NCBI GenBank assembly: GCA_028287505.1
Contig: JAQBPN010000087.1
Coordinates: forward strand, 1-64,000
DNA: 64,000 nt
From: Fibrobacterota bacterium
GTDB taxonomy: Bacteria; Fibrobacterota; Fibrobacteria; UBA11236
Direction: 5' to 3'
In this document: positions 9,379-50,102 of the stretch, one piece after another
Layout: every line of letters starts with the position of its first letter
How positions within the stretch are numbered: the stretch's first letter is position 1
Translations under genes and position numbers: made by a program
The notes under the pieces: generated by a model
What the model saw: the letters and a program-made list of their open reading frames with translations, nothing else
Databases searched by the model: none
What the model was told of the DNA's origin: nothing

Positions 9379-9981
9379 ATGGCTTACTTCTCCGCTAAAT
9401 CCACTTGGCTCAGTCTGGTCGACGGCGCAGGCAACCCCGGCGCCGAGGCCCGCAAACCCGAATCCGCCACCCCCCTGGATGGCCTGGCCCTCTCCTTCGA
9501 GGACTTCCGCCCCTGCTTTCCCGCCGAAGGACAGGGCATCGGATCCGATTCGACCGCGACCAAGGACGGCGTCACCGACAGCGCCGAAGACCTGGACTAC
9601 CTGCGCATCACCCTGGAACTGCGCCACCGCCTCTTCTTCCACTTCAAGGAATGGGAGTTCGGCCCGGCCCTGCTGGAGGATCATCTCCGGCTGGCCCAGG
9701 CCCAGACCGATCCCGAAGAGGCGCTCGCGCATTACTGCCAGGCCCGTCACGTATCCGTTACCCTGGTCGACAAACATGACCAACCCTCCTACCGCCTGGC
9801 CTGGATCGAGGCCGACCGCGTCATCGCGGAAATCCACGACCTGATCGGGAATGTGGAGAGCTGTGCGGTGTATGCCAAAGAGGGCTTGGAGGCGATCAAG
9901 CGGGGGAAGTTTCCGTCCTCCCTGGATATGCGCATCACCAAGCTTACGGTGCGGTTTTTGAATCTTCTCGGGCGTGCATGA
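9379..9981 (+). CDS. Conserved-type hypothetical cytosolic protein, 200 aa
   Basis: I do not recognise the family. The product is acidic and mostly helical after residue 70 (LDYLRITLELRHRLFFHFKEWEFGPALLEDHLRLAQ and IEADRVIAEIHDLIGNVESCAVYAKEGLEAI), without a signal peptide or membrane segment. The first 65 residues are probably disordered. A strong Shine-Dalgarno (AAGGAGG) lies about 12 nt before the ATG, which fixes the start. The gene stands alone, 4 bp before a long foldback repeat. Helical spacing hints at a TPR-like or four-helix fold, but that is only an impression. Confidence 0.7.
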   Translation: MAYFSAKSTWLSLVDGAGNPGAEARKPESATPLDGLALSFEDFRPCFPAEGQGIGSDSTATKDGVTDSAEDLDYLRITLELRHRLFFHFKEWEFGPALLEDHLRLAQAQTDPEEALAHYCQARHVSVTLVDKHDQPSYRLAWIEADRVIAEIHDLIGNVESCAVYAKEGLEAIKRGKFPSSLDMRITKLTVRFLNLLGRA

Positions 9982-9984
9982 CCC

Positions 9985-10219
9985 GGTCCCATGGGGGCGG
10001 GCGCCCGCACGCGCTGACGGCTCCGCCCTCCAGCTAATCGAAGCGCGGGGTCTGCCGGCCGAGCAGACGACTCCCTGATGGTCCGCGCGTGGGAGCGCAC
10101 ATGCCGGTCTCCTGACGTCAGACACCCGCAGAGTGCGCTCCGCTTCCACCCAGGGCTGCCCGGCCACGCTTCCGGACTCCGCCTGATTCGCGCGTGCGGG
10201 CGCCCGCCCCCACGGGACC
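9985..10219. repeat. 235-bp foldback element with 30-bp arms
   Basis: The arm at 9985-10014 is the reverse complement of 10190-10219 with one mismatch in 30 bp; both contain GGGCGGGCGCCCGC. Inside lie further complementary segments (GTGGGAGCGCAC near 10089 and GTGCGCTCC near 10134) and the perfect palindrome CTGACGTCAG (about 10112-10121). It starts 4 bp after a stop codon. It could be a large terminator, a MITE-like foldback or a structured RNA. Confidence 0.75.
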
Positions 10220-10455
10220 CCGCCAGATGCTCCGGGGAGATACAGAAGCCGCGCGGTCAACCGGGGAGGCGAAGTCCATGCAAAGCCGATACGGCCCAGC
10301 CTGACCGGGTCGAAACCAAGACAGGCATCGACCGCGGCAGGTTTTCATCGGGTCTGCGAGTCCCAACAGCGAACCCTACCGCAACCTTACAGCCCAGAAC
10401 CGGCCCACTCCACCTTCACCCCGCGCTCACCCCGCGCCCCCCGAAGTCTACGCCC

Positions 10456-10660
10456 CAACCTCACCGCGCACCGATCGCCCCCAGCGGTCTGAGCCGCGTG
10501 GGCACAAAAGCCCGCGCCTCCAAAGTCATTGATCCAACCTCACCGCGCACAGTTCGCCCCGCGGACTGTGCCGCGTGGGTTACAACCGCCCCACCCCCGA
10601 AGTCATCGTCCAACCCAAAGCGCGCACGGTCCGCCCCGCGGACGGTGCCGCCGCGCCTCC
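10456..10660. repeat. Three imperfect about 77-bp tandem repeats, each with a hairpin
   Basis: Units begin with CAACC at 10456, 10535 and 10611, and each is preceded by a variant of CGAAGTCATCGTC. Within each unit a GC-rich hairpin occurs: CACAGTTCGCCCCGCGGACTG in the second and CGGTCCGCCCCGCGGACGG in the third, with a poorer version in the first. The hairpin arms change together while the CGCCCCGCG centre is kept. The long plus-strand frames across 10078-11587 look non-coding (Pro/Arg/Thr-rich, no ribosome-binding site). Confidence 0.65.
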
Positions 10661-10843
10661 CAGACAAGCAGGGAACCTGCCGACCCGGAGGTCCCAACGA
10701 CCCAGCCCAATCCTCCCAGGCGGCCTACGCCCCCCTCAGTCGAAAGCACGGTGATGTCTACGCAGACAATCGGCCACACCGCCGCCGCTACAAAGGTCGT
10801 CCGGGTTCCTCCGGCCTCTTGGTCACCAGGTATACGACCGCAC

Positions 10844-11102
10844 GGTCGCGCGGGTCCGGGGTTCCCGGGCCTATCAGGCGGAATCGGAAGGAAAGCCCGC
10901 GAAGTCCAGACCGCGGTTTGCGGGGCCGAACGGCACGGGCGCAAGCGAGCGCCTGCGAGACCCCGCTTGCGAGAGCCGCCCATCGCGAGCGAAGCGCAGA
11001 AGACTAATAACGTTGGGTCCGGCCGTTCGGCCGGAAGACTCGGAGGTTCGAAAGCAAACCCGATGAAGCCGTCAGGCCCGGGAACCCCGGACCCGCGCGA
11101 CC
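10844..11102. repeat. 259-bp foldback element with perfect 29-bp arms
   Basis: The arm at 10844-10872 (GGTCGCGCGGGTCCGGGG...) is perfectly complementary to 11074-11102. Its interior holds TCCGGCCGTTCGGCCGGA (about 11021-11038) and other self-complementary runs. It ends 11 bp from the secDF stop codon, mirroring the position of the first foldback next to the gene on the left. So the 1.1 kb between two convergent genes consists almost wholly of structured repeats. Confidence 0.75.
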
Positions 11103-11112
11103 TTGAGACCGC

Positions 11113-13806
11113 CTACTTCTTGGCAGCCATCGCCGGACGAACCCGGCGCCTATCCCACCAGACAACGAAGGGACAGGCCACGGCAATCGTGGAATACGTC
11201 CCGACCACGACGCCAATGACCATCGCCACGCTGAAATCGCGCACCGACGAAGCCCCCATCACCGCCAGAATCACCACGGTGAACAACACCGTCAAATGCG
11301 TGATAATCGAACGGCTCAGGCACTGGTTGTTGGCGCTGTTCACCCGCGACGCGAAGCTCTCCTTGGAACTGGCCACGCCGGTCAGTTCGCGGATGCGGTC
11401 GAAGATGATGATCGAATCGTTCAGCGAATACCCGATGATGGTCAGGATGGCCGCCACGAAATCGAGGGAGATTTCCATCCCGAACAAGGCGAACAATCCC
11501 AGGGTGATCAGACTGTCATGGATCAGCCCGAGCACGCCGCCCACGCCGAAGCCGAGGCCGTTGCGTCCGAAGCGGAACCAGATGTAGAGCACGATCAACA
11601 CCAGGGCCGAAAGGATGGAAAGCACCGCGGACTTGCGCAGGTCCTTGCCCACCGAGGGACCGACCGTATCTTCGCCTTCGATCGTGGATCCCGCCACCGC
11701 ACGGGCGATAATGCCCCGGGAGGCGGTGTCTTCAGCCACCTTGGGAAGGAAAACCAGCAAGCGGTTCTCGTTGATTGCGCCCAGGGTCTGGACACGCGGG
11801 GCTTCGAGACCGGCGGATTCGATTTCCCTGCGGACTTTTTCGATGTCGGGCTTCTGGTCGAACTTGACGCGGTAGACATGGCCGCCGGTGAAGTCGATGC
11901 CGAAATGCAGGCCCTTCACGGCGATGGCGCCCAAGGCCAGCACCAGGATGACGATGGAAAGGCCCACGTAGTACTTGGCCAGGGGAATGACCTTGATGTC
12001 CACTTCATGGAACCAATTGATGCCCTTGCCGATGGAAAGCTGCTTCACGTCGCGGCCGGCGAGGATGTAGTCGAATACCAGGCGGGTGACGATGATGGCC
12101 GTGTACATGGAAGCGCCCAGGCCGACCATGAGGGTCAGACCGAAACCCTTGATGGGGCCGACGCCGATGTAATACAGGATGGCGGCGGTTCCGAAGGTGG
12201 TCACGTTGGAATCGAAAATGGCGCTGAAGGCTTTCTTGTATCCCGCGTCGATGGCGGCGCGCACGCTGCGGCCCGCCCGCAATTCTTCCCGGATGCGCTC
12301 GAAAATCAGCACGTTGGAGTCCACGGCCATACCGATGGTGAGCACAATGCCGGCGATGCCGGGCAGGGTCAGGGTGGCGTGGAATGCGCCCAACACGGCG
12401 AAGAGGATGATCATGTTGAGAAGCAGGGCGAGATTGGCGATCAGGCCGGCGCCCCTATAGTAGAGCGCCATGAAGCCGGCGACCAGGGCCAAGGCGATCA
12501 AGGCGGCCATCAGGCCCTTGTGGATGTTGTCTTCGCCCAGGGTGGGTCCCACCGAGCGCAACTCTGCGATTTTCATGGGGGCGGGCAGGGAGCCGGCGCG
12601 CAGGGTAATCGCAAGCTGGTTGGCTTCTTTCATGTCCCCGATACCGGTGATGGAAGCCTGTCCGTTGGGGATGGCGCCCTGGATGACGGGGGCCGAATAG
12701 ACCACGGAGTCCAGAACGATGGCCAGCTGTTTGCCGATATTGGCGCTGGTGATGCGCCGGAACTCTTTGGGTCCGATGCCTTTGAAGCTGAGGCTTACCG
12801 CCACTTCGCCCGAATTCAAACCGCCGCCTTCGCGCCTGGGTTTTGCATCGGCGATGTTGGCTCCGGTCATTTCCGGGCGGTGCTTGAGGAGATACAGGCG
12901 GCGGATTTTGGTCTGACCGCCTTCCAGGGTCTCGATGTCCCGGCCCCACAGGAACTGGTAGCGGCTGGGGATGAGGGCCTGGATGTCCGGATCCTCGAGA
13001 ATGGCCTTGGCCTTGCCGACGTTCTCAGCCTTGACGGCCAGATCGCGGCCCATGGGCACGAGCAGGGATCCGAAGGGACGGTTCTTGTAGAATTCGGAAG
13101 CGGATTCCGCGGAGGTATCCGCGGCGCCGAGAGCGCTCTTGGTGGAATCCGCCTTTTTGGCGCTATCGCTGGCGGATGCCAGGAGGCCGGTGGAGTCCTT
13201 GGCCGCGGCCTTGGAAGTGTCCTTGCCGACCACGCGGCCGAAAATGTCCTGGACGGCCTGGGCGGTATCGCTTGCGGGACCGGCGCCTTTTTCGGGTTTA
13301 CCGCCGGAACGGCGGTTGAGGAAGGCGTCAATCTTGTCCAAAACGGGCTTGAACTCGGTCCCTTCAGGGATCAGTTTGAACTCCAGGAGGGCGGTGGCGC
13401 CGATGAGGCGGCGCGCGTCATCGGCGCCCATGCCGGCCAGATCGGCCACGATGCGGTTATCCCCGGAGCGGGTAATGAGAGGTTCGCTCAATCCGTACTG
13501 ATCCACGCGGTTCCGGAGGATTTCCAGGGAACGGTCCATCACGTCCTTCTGGGCTTCCTTGTCCAGCTTCTCCTTATTCACCTCGACGATGATATGGGTG
13601 CCGCCGGCCAGATCCAAACCAAGGTTGATGGCTTTGGATGCCGTATTTGGATGGTCTTTCTTGAAAATTTCCCGTTCCCGCTTCTCGAGGGGCAGGTTGG
13701 CGTCGTTGCTCTTGGAAAAGACCTGGATGCTTGGCCAGAGGCTGACGCCGCACAGCGCCAGGATGATGAGCAACAGAACTGTGCGTAATCCGGTATCCCT
13801 TTTCAT
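11113..13806 (-). CDS. secDF: Fused protein translocase subunit SecDF
   Basis: The accessory part of the Sec translocon, which uses proton-motive force to help pull exported proteins across the inner membrane. The 897-residue product fuses SecD (about 1-590) to SecF (about 600-897). SecD landmarks: one N-terminal membrane helix, LGLDLAGGTHIIVEVNKEKL, the periplasmic P1 region, IAGIVLTIGMAVDSNVLIFERIREELRAG. SecF landmarks: FGIDFTGGHVYRVKF and IIGYSLNDSIIIFDRIRE. A linker of about 90 residues rich in Ala, Ser and Lys (residues about 175-265) interrupts P1. Start ATG at 13806. The gene is alone, with no yajC neighbour. The load of exported proteins here fits a need for it. Confidence 0.95.
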   Translation of the reverse strand: MKRDTGLRTVLLLIILALCGVSLWPSIQVFSKSNDANLPLEKREREIFKKDHPNTASKAINLGLDLAGGTHIIVEVNKEKLDKEAQKDVMDRSLEILRNRVDQYGLSEPLITRSGDNRIVADLAGMGADDARRLIGATALLEFKLIPEGTEFKPVLDKIDAFLNRRSGGKPEKGAGPASDTAQAVQDIFGRVVGKDTSKAAAKDSTGLLASASDSAKKADSTKSALGAADTSAESASEFYKNRPFGSLLVPMGRDLAVKAENVGKAKAILEDPDIQALIPSRYQFLWGRDIETLEGGQTKIRRLYLLKHRPEMTGANIADAKPRREGGGLNSGEVAVSLSFKGIGPKEFRRITSANIGKQLAIVLDSVVYSAPVIQGAIPNGQASITGIGDMKEANQLAITLRAGSLPAPMKIAELRSVGPTLGEDNIHKGLMAALIALALVAGFMALYYRGAGLIANLALLLNMIILFAVLGAFHATLTLPGIAGIVLTIGMAVDSNVLIFERIREELRAGRSVRAAIDAGYKKAFSAIFDSNVTTFGTAAILYYIGVGPIKGFGLTLMVGLGASMYTAIIVTRLVFDYILAGRDVKQLSIGKGINWFHEVDIKVIPLAKYYVGLSIVILVLALGAIAVKGLHFGIDFTGGHVYRVKFDQKPDIEKVRREIESAGLEAPRVQTLGAINENRLLVFLPKVAEDTASRGIIARAVAGSTIEGEDTVGPSVGKDLRKSAVLSILSALVLIVLYIWFRFGRNGLGFGVGGVLGLIHDSLITLGLFALFGMEISLDFVAAILTIIGYSLNDSIIIFDRIRELTGVASSKESFASRVNSANNQCLSRSIITHLTVLFTVVILAVMGASSVRDFSVAMVIGVVVGTYSTIAVACPFVVWWDRRRVRPAMAAKK

Positions 13807-46667: not shown

Positions 46668-46965
46668 TGCAATTGTCGGGGGCTACTCCATCCCAGCGGG
46701 CTTCGTCCGTGGTTCCCAGGACGAAATCACGCTGTAGGTATTCCCCTCTTGGGCCTGGATGACTGCTCGCAGGCGAGCCAGGCCCAAGAGGGGAATACCC
46801 GTAATATCATCCTTCTGTCAATTCCGGTCTGTGGATGATATTACGGGGATGGAGTGCCAACGGTCACGTTAAGCTTTGCGTGGGCACTCCGTGCCACAAC
46901 AGCTTAACGGTACCGCCAATCCCGCCAACTCGGCAGGCCGCTACGCATCTGCCGCCCTTCGGGGC
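46668..46965 (+). other. Cassette 2: no gene, nested palindromes
   Basis: I find no credible gene. Outer arms GGCTACTCCATCCC (46681-46694) and GGGATGGAGTGCC (46846-46858) enclose two perfect hairpins: a 22-bp stem (46737-46758 with 46778-46799, starting GGTATTCCCC) and a 15-bp stem (46798-46812 with 46833-46847, CCCGTAATATCATCC). A third, CGTTAAGCT (46867-46875) with AGCTTAACG (46901-46909), contains GTTAAGC and GCTTAAC, exact integron core-box consensus sequences, around an inner GGCAC-TCC-GTGCC hairpin. Possible roles are a structured RNA, remnants of attC sites, or a foldback element. Confidence 0.7.
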
Positions 46966-49827: not shown

Positions 49828-50102
49828 GCGCAACAACCCAAAGGGCGCTTCGTTCGTGACTCCGCACTCACTTCGGGGCTTCGCCCAAATTGGTTTTGGA
49901 GCTGGTCCGGCAATTCAAACTGGGATTCGGCTGCACTGACTTCCGCTGTGTTCTTCGCCATCGGTCTACGTCAGTTTGACTCATCCCGTTTTCATTGCTT
50001 GCTGTGGTCGCTCATTCCGGGGGGCATAGGCCCCACTCCATTCGCGTCCTCGCAAATCGGTCCAGCTCCAAAACCAACTTCGCCCTTCGGGCGACGTTGC
50101 AT
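49828..50102 (+). repeat. Giant attC-like site D (275 bp)
   Basis: Left box GCGCAAC (49828-49834), right box GTTGCAT (50096-50102). Outer arms GCAACAACCCAAAGGGCG and CGCCCTTCGGGCGACGTTGC pair; inner arms TTGGTTTTGGAGCTGG and CCAGCTCCAAAACCAA pair perfectly over 16 bp. The tail before it (CCGCCCCCAAAGAAATGCCGAGG...) is shared with the tails of F, H and K. Apart from this site, 49690-50205 holds no gene that I can see. Confidence 0.8.

Follow-up and report, generated by a model that had tools for sequence, protein, structure and literature searches.

The window analysed here, a 64-kb stretch of DNA from a Fibrobacterota bacterium, carries a gene for a 200-aa protein and a convergent secDF fusion gene, between which lie two long foldback elements, termed I2 and I1 (Table 1). 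The closest relatives of the secDF product come from Fibrobacteres/Fibrobacteria metagenome bins (the best four are 80-90% identical), and the region was compared with five relatives from the same genus (G001-G005; the own genome is referred to as G000). An earlier note, made from the sequence alone, had reported a 30-bp-arm foldback at one stop codon and a perfect 29-bp foldback at the other, and both observations hold: the arms of I2 pair at 29 of 30 positions and begin 3 nt past the stop, while those of I1 pair at 29 of 29 positions, 10 nt from the secDF stop. I1 and I2 are the top two foldbacks of the whole window. In 464 kb of the own genome, 16 foldbacks reach a comparable strength versus 0 in a triplet-shuffled control, and a second sample of 332 kb yielded 9 strong foldbacks versus 0 in three shuffles; the strong foldbacks of this genome include several from other repeat families. 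Covariance models from Rfam gave 0 matches at the gathering threshold in the window and 0 at E<=1 in positions 9950-11140. A search for a hairpin followed by a U-run, typical of intrinsic terminators, behind both the 200-aa gene and secDF returned none, and the region around I1 and I2 contains one weak terminator-like match, within chance level.

Table 1. Genes, foldback elements and repeats of the intergenic region (positions in the window)
Feature	Position	Strand	Remarks
200-aa ORF	9379..9981	+	without Pfam match; present in 5/5 genus relatives searched
Foldback element I2, 235 bp	9985..10219	+ (sense = +)	downstream of the 200-aa gene; interior is a family member
I2 5' arm, 30 bp	9985..10014	+	3 nt past the stop codon of the 200-aa ORF
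I2 interior segment for model R1	10016..10131	+	training member, 54.6 bits
I2 3' arm	10190..10219	+	complementarity 29/30, single A-C mismatch
Spacer separating I2 and I1	10220..10843	.	~105 nt are 84% identical at the same locus of G004
Three tandem repeats, 77-79 nt, with short GC hairpins	10429..10660	.	dispersed copies not found
Foldback element I1, 259 bp	10844..11102	- (sense = -)	downstream of secDF
I1 3' arm	10844..10872	-	complementarity 29/29
I1 interior segment for model R1	10948..11073	-	training member, 107.7 bits
I1 5' arm (sense), 29 bp	11074..11102	-	10 nt past the secDF stop
secDF fusion gene	11113..13806	-	

The spacer contains three tandem repeats starting at 10429, 10508 and 10585 (spacing 79 and 77; 72% identity to the reference copy), which had been described as a covarying triple repeat of about 77 bp. 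The repeats exist, but the covariation of their hairpins is weaker than claimed: unit 2 folds with one G-U pair, unit 3 retains one mismatch, and in unit 1 that hairpin is not formed on the + strand. Sequence searches detected no dispersed copies, so the triple repeat is confined to this locus.

When the whole spacer was used as a query, the I1 interior turned out to have a paralogue on a different contig of the own genome, and short conserved stretches were matched in other places; at the loci of these matches each interior is flanked by its own complementary pair of arms, with a different sequence at each locus. A covariance model (R1) was built from 13 interiors with the arms excluded; since it holds only 3 base pairs, it is close to a plain sequence profile. 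R1 was run against the own genome and 41 further genomes. Among the 12 in-genus matches outside the training set with E<=0.11, 10 are flanked by complementary arms of at least 22 bp, the remaining two being an armless partial copy (C99b2) and one match in G005. One element (C34) was matched at just E=2.06, yet its arms pair at 30 of 30 positions; other weak in-genus matches have no arms (C43, C58:110277, C101, C4, C90, C112, G2C17 and two of G003), and a further weak own-genome match (C58:22536, E 5.1) lies outside the counts. Outside the genus arms were found in 0 of 14 R1 matches, and therefore the family looks confined to this genus.

Altogether, 27 intact elements (arms of at least 22 bp) with a length of 207-301 bp were collected from five Fibrobacterota genomes: 14 from the own genome, 9 from G004, 2 from G002 and one each from G001 and G003, with no element in the 160 kb examined of G005. 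In samples picked independently of the matches, the own genome yielded 2 elements in 332 kb and G004 yielded 2 in 153 kb. Each element consists of arms of 22-33 bp, hypervariable yet complementary, around a semi-conserved interior of 147-253 nt; in three of them the interior holds short inserted hairpins centred on CCANTGG or pieces of a second repeat (C9, L157 3634-3926; C67b, L158 3105-3405; C2, L156 4793-5083). Six elements were found first by their arms: C39a (by arms only; its interior similarity is weak, and it was kept), G4C13b, C20a, C20b, G4C1 and G4C6. The counts leave out two sequences at orthologous or family sites that have lost their long arms (C99a, arms 12/13; G4C50, 13/13), two armless copies (C99b2, L045 18249-18360; G2I1, L014 7754-7871), two members of a second, 172-bp family, inverted repeats of the CGTCGGG type, the window segments 46737-46799 and 49890-50077, as well as L088, L095 and a pair at L045 2942-3171 with one copy of the second family lying inside it. 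A second model, derived from another alignment (A2), was dropped, as that alignment misaligned subfamilies.

I1 and I2 belong to one dispersed foldback family at the level of the genus, of which a literature search found no description. Genome searches with the arm sequences of I1 and I2 returned only self-matches and chance partial matches. The earlier note had counted arms that occur only once among its grounds for refutation, but such a test would mislead, since the arm sequence is particular to each copy. The dispersal also weakens the view that I1 and I2 are two ordinary, oversized bidirectional terminators of purely local significance at a convergent gene pair: they do lie directly behind both stops, where no other terminator was found, but they have no U-run and relatives of their interiors recur at many loci elsewhere, so that we consider this explanation quite unlikely.

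Other repeats and integron-like features of this genome were encountered in the course of the analysis. The second family, a dispersed repeat 172-173 bp long (L045 2970-3141; L055 19719-19891), has conserved outer arms, inner arms that are variable but complementary, and a variable inner hairpin, while repeats of the CGTCGGG type form many inverted pairs in the own genome (L057 10465-10609; L195 467-601; L201 162-280). In the window, the region 43995-64000 resembles an integron-like cassette array, though one whose sites are unusual: an ORF for a tyrosine recombinase (147.9 bits to PF00589; its matches to integron integrases are partial and fall below the cut-off) precedes about 18 kb of ORFs, which mostly gave no Pfam match where tested and are separated by repeats of ~50-230 nt (one in 7 copies). 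At 46737-46799 this region also contains a hairpin with a perfect stem of 22 bp and a loop of 19 nt. A second integrase (G000:C53:3225-4154, L222) scores 380.9 bits, above the integron-integrase cut-off.

The elements were oriented by their interiors, and a stop codon was counted if it lay within 40 nt and if the frame of the gene on the same strand scored best as coding. By this rule the 5' arm starts 3-39 nt past a coding stop in 20 of the 27 elements, versus 0 of 27 on the side of the 3' arm. Transcripts of the upstream genes would thus end in the element in most cases, with the 5' arm first. The seven exceptions are C100, C99b (100 nt away, behind an armless copy), C39a, G4C13a, G2C6, G3C52 and C20b, some of which adjoin a gene start in reversed orientation; an interpretation of C20a and C20b as serving a convergent gene pair was rejected, as the coding score shows that the gene adjoining C20b on its 5' arm side runs in the other direction. 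The polarity toward gene 3' ends, together with the conserved interiors, fits an RNA element acting at the 3' end. In each of the five secDF orthologues that lack the element (L009, L010, L012, L013 and L015) a hairpin with a T-run is found within 330 nt, while among the three secDF genes with an element or its remnant the window and L014 have no T-run terminator and L011 has a terminator inside the element. U-runs are rare in the interiors, with one T5 run inside the 27 elements.

A position behind stop codons, together with the preservation of structure rather than sequence, is also characteristic of integron attC sites, whose core boxes have the consensus RYYYAAC / GTTRRRY, and this genome encodes an integron integrase. 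The possibility that the foldbacks are attC-like recombination sites that remained behind genes is nevertheless very unlikely, as both boxes are present at the ends in 0 of 27 elements and the loci are scattered rather than arrayed.

Elements were found at orthologous sites in at least two species at seven loci. Orthology was established by comparison of the flanks (I1, I2, C2, C9, the set of C99a, G4C13a and G2C6, and G4C13b/G1C118) or, for C67a/G4C1, judged by eye from the upstream sequence; G3C52 was rejected as a further member of the C99a set, as the flank comparison gave no link. This recurrence refutes, for practical purposes, the idea that the foldbacks are an assembly artefact: the named related Fibrobacterota records are indeed metagenome-assembled, all but one explicitly, but the same architecture with conserved interiors occurs at orthologous positions and across five genomes, and we give an artefact next to no weight.

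In the six comparable orthologous pairs the interiors are 72-86% identical (6 to 20 SD above shuffles), while the similarity of the arms is at or near the shuffled level in three pairs (I2/G4I2, z 0.1; G4C13b/G1C118, z 0.1; C9/G4C100b, z 0.9), intermediate in I1/G4I1 (z 2.5) and clear in two (C67a/G4C1, z 4.9; G4C13a/G2C6, z 6.2); C2/G4C50 falls outside this comparison because G4C50 has lost its long arms. The arms differ between copies as well as between orthologous sites, and they remain paired all the same, with 738 of 761 arm pairs across the 27 elements of the Watson-Crick type (3.0% mismatched). In an alignment of six elements (A3), two-sided change affects 18 of 29 pairs and one-sided change 0, a result reached in 0 of 500 shuffles, and 95.7% of the cells are paired versus 76.9% when shuffled and 30-49% when slid. 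In an alignment of three elements (A4), 12 of 28 pairs changed on both sides, again 0 on one side, with 100% paired; the two alignments combined thus contain 30 two-sided changes. As a rough estimate, with interiors differing by ~28%, arms drifting independently would be expected to mismatch in about a quarter of the pairs, compared with the 3.0% seen, a value biased downwards by stem selection (by a score that favours well-matched arms) and by the dropping of decayed copies, and also because several elements were found first by their arms; the elements are, moreover, non-independent.

The same data bear on the alternative that the family represents a MITE-like non-autonomous DNA transposon, with the arms as terminal inverted repeats and copies spread by a transposase. 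Similar interiors dispersed at non-orthologous loci, presence or absence that differs among species, and repeats nested within copies would agree with such an origin. However, the arms are the least conserved part of the element, flanking direct repeats of at least 5 occur in 1 of 27 elements compared with 2.7% in shuffles (chance level), the copies retain orthologous sites and polarity to stop codons, and the Y1 transposase family is absent from five of six genomes, including the two richest in elements. We therefore judge a MITE-like origin to be improbable, and MITE identity was rejected on the two features tested, conserved terminal repeats and target site duplication. The three readings of the earlier note (a structured-RNA locus, a set of MITE-like elements, double terminators) were each right in part: a dispersed family with polarity to gene 3' ends emerged, while conserved terminal repeats and target duplications did not.

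A stronger competitor is a structured RNA, either a 3'-UTR element or an independent ncRNA, whose helices are held by selection and ordinary compensatory mutation, with no special copying. It would account for the orientation toward gene 3' ends, for conserved interior motifs next to variable helices, for the strong covariation in A3 and A4 and for the predicted folds of the sense strand (-126 to -200 kcal/mol in 13 family sequences of varying fragment length, C99a and G4C50 included), but the antisense strand of the elements folds about equally well. If pairing were guarded at the RNA level only, G-U should be the commonest departure from Watson-Crick pairing. The 23 mismatches in the 27 elements, a small sample, comprise 4 G-U (4 of 761 pairs), 6 A-C and 13 others, showing no wobble excess, compared with 25 G-U, 7 A-C and 9 others in terminator-like hairpins of the same genus (n=52, counted under a wobble-blind score; Fisher test for G-U versus the rest p=0.0014, for G-U versus A-C p=0.046). 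Given this scarcity of G-U pairs and the lack of one-sided variation in either alignment, we regard selection alone as a rather unlikely explanation.

The types of arm pairs are also asymmetric: G-C outnumbers C-G by 384 to 251 and T-A outnumbers A-T by 84 to 19, with T-A above A-T in 24 of 27 elements, a tie in 3 and the reverse in 0. The 150 nt downstream of the elements are rich in G on the sense strand (G 0.40, C 0.24) and also in T, and such a regional strand skew could explain part of the asymmetry, as the 5' arm may share it; the 3' arm has the opposite composition, so it is the 3' arm that follows the 5' arm. In the proposal of Monttinen and Loytynoja (PMC8794818), template switching maintains the pairing of stems in a single step and intrastrand switching corrects by the 5' base, so that G-C and U-A should be in excess. 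The foldback family agrees with all three points: paired changes occur without wobble intermediates (30 two-sided and 0 one-sided changes; G-U 4 versus A-C 6), and on the sense strand G-C exceeds C-G and U-A exceeds A-U, both excesses possibly owing in part to the regional skew.

Our preferred interpretation, to which we assign a probability of about one half, is that the elements are giant 3'-end hairpins that serve as a terminator or mRNA-end barrier and whose arms are kept matched by template-switch copying of the DNA. According to this scenario, an element would be transcribed together with the upstream gene and fold into a very stable 3'-end hairpin, which would stop transcription and/or block 3' exonucleases in place of an ordinary intrinsic terminator. 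Replication of the hairpin-forming DNA would switch template, with the 5' arm serving mostly as the source from which the 3' arm is rewritten, and complementarity would be restored at the DNA level, so that the arms could drift while still matched, as the mirrored arm sequences suggest. Inversion of a spacer is another possible outcome of template switching (PMC8604942) and might account for some of the reversed copies; simple inversion would be insufficient for C100 and C99b, because their distance also differs from that of related sites. We also speculate, with little confidence, that these sequences form a new class of element in which the interior alone is inherited as sequence and the matched arms are regenerated by hairpin-primed copying, each copy with its own perfect inverted repeat, and that the same copying may drive the spread.

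To explain how long RNA or DNA stems keep their pairing as they evolve in sequence, the usual answer is two-step compensation via G-U pairs and the alternative is one-step template switching. Multi-copy stems of 22-33 bp with no wobble excess, no one-sided change in two alignments and a strong directional asymmetry of pair types offer a clean natural test case in bacteria. If the 3'-end role is true, the family would be a genus-specific substitute for ordinary terminators.

In comparison with known systems, the elements resemble integron attC sites in being palindromic, in keeping structure amid variable sequence and in lying behind stop codons, and differ from them in the absence of core boxes, the much longer perfect arms and the scattered loci. 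With MITEs they share inverted repeats, dispersal and the lack of credible coding capacity, but their terminal repeats vary between copies and no target duplication is seen. REP/BIME/REPIN sequences are described as dispersed extragenic palindromes, mostly behind genes, for which a role in termination or mRNA stability has been hypothesised (PMC3733652), and the foldback elements are likewise dispersed, extragenic and mostly behind genes; unlike REPs, which are conserved tagged palindromes of 20-40 bp, they extend over 207-301 bp and combine hypervariable arms with a conserved interior. A REP/REPIN identity was rejected, as there is no short conserved palindrome with an unpaired tag, and a search of six genomes for the RAYT/Y1 transposase (PF01797) found it in G001 and not in G000 or G002-G005. 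Like intrinsic terminators and 3'-end stabilising stem-loops, for which the Rho-dependent galM transcripts of E. coli, processed back to a stem-loop, provide an example (PMC9927376), the elements place a stem-loop just past the stop, but their stem is very long, surrounds a structured interior and mostly has no U-run. With template-switch (quasipalindrome) hairpins, for which spacer inversion has been described, they share the mirrored changes of the arms and the excess of G-C and U-A (PMC8794818, PMC8604942); the examples given there are rRNA, microRNA stems and yeast genes, whereas the present case is a multi-copy bacterial intergenic family with arms of 22-33 bp.
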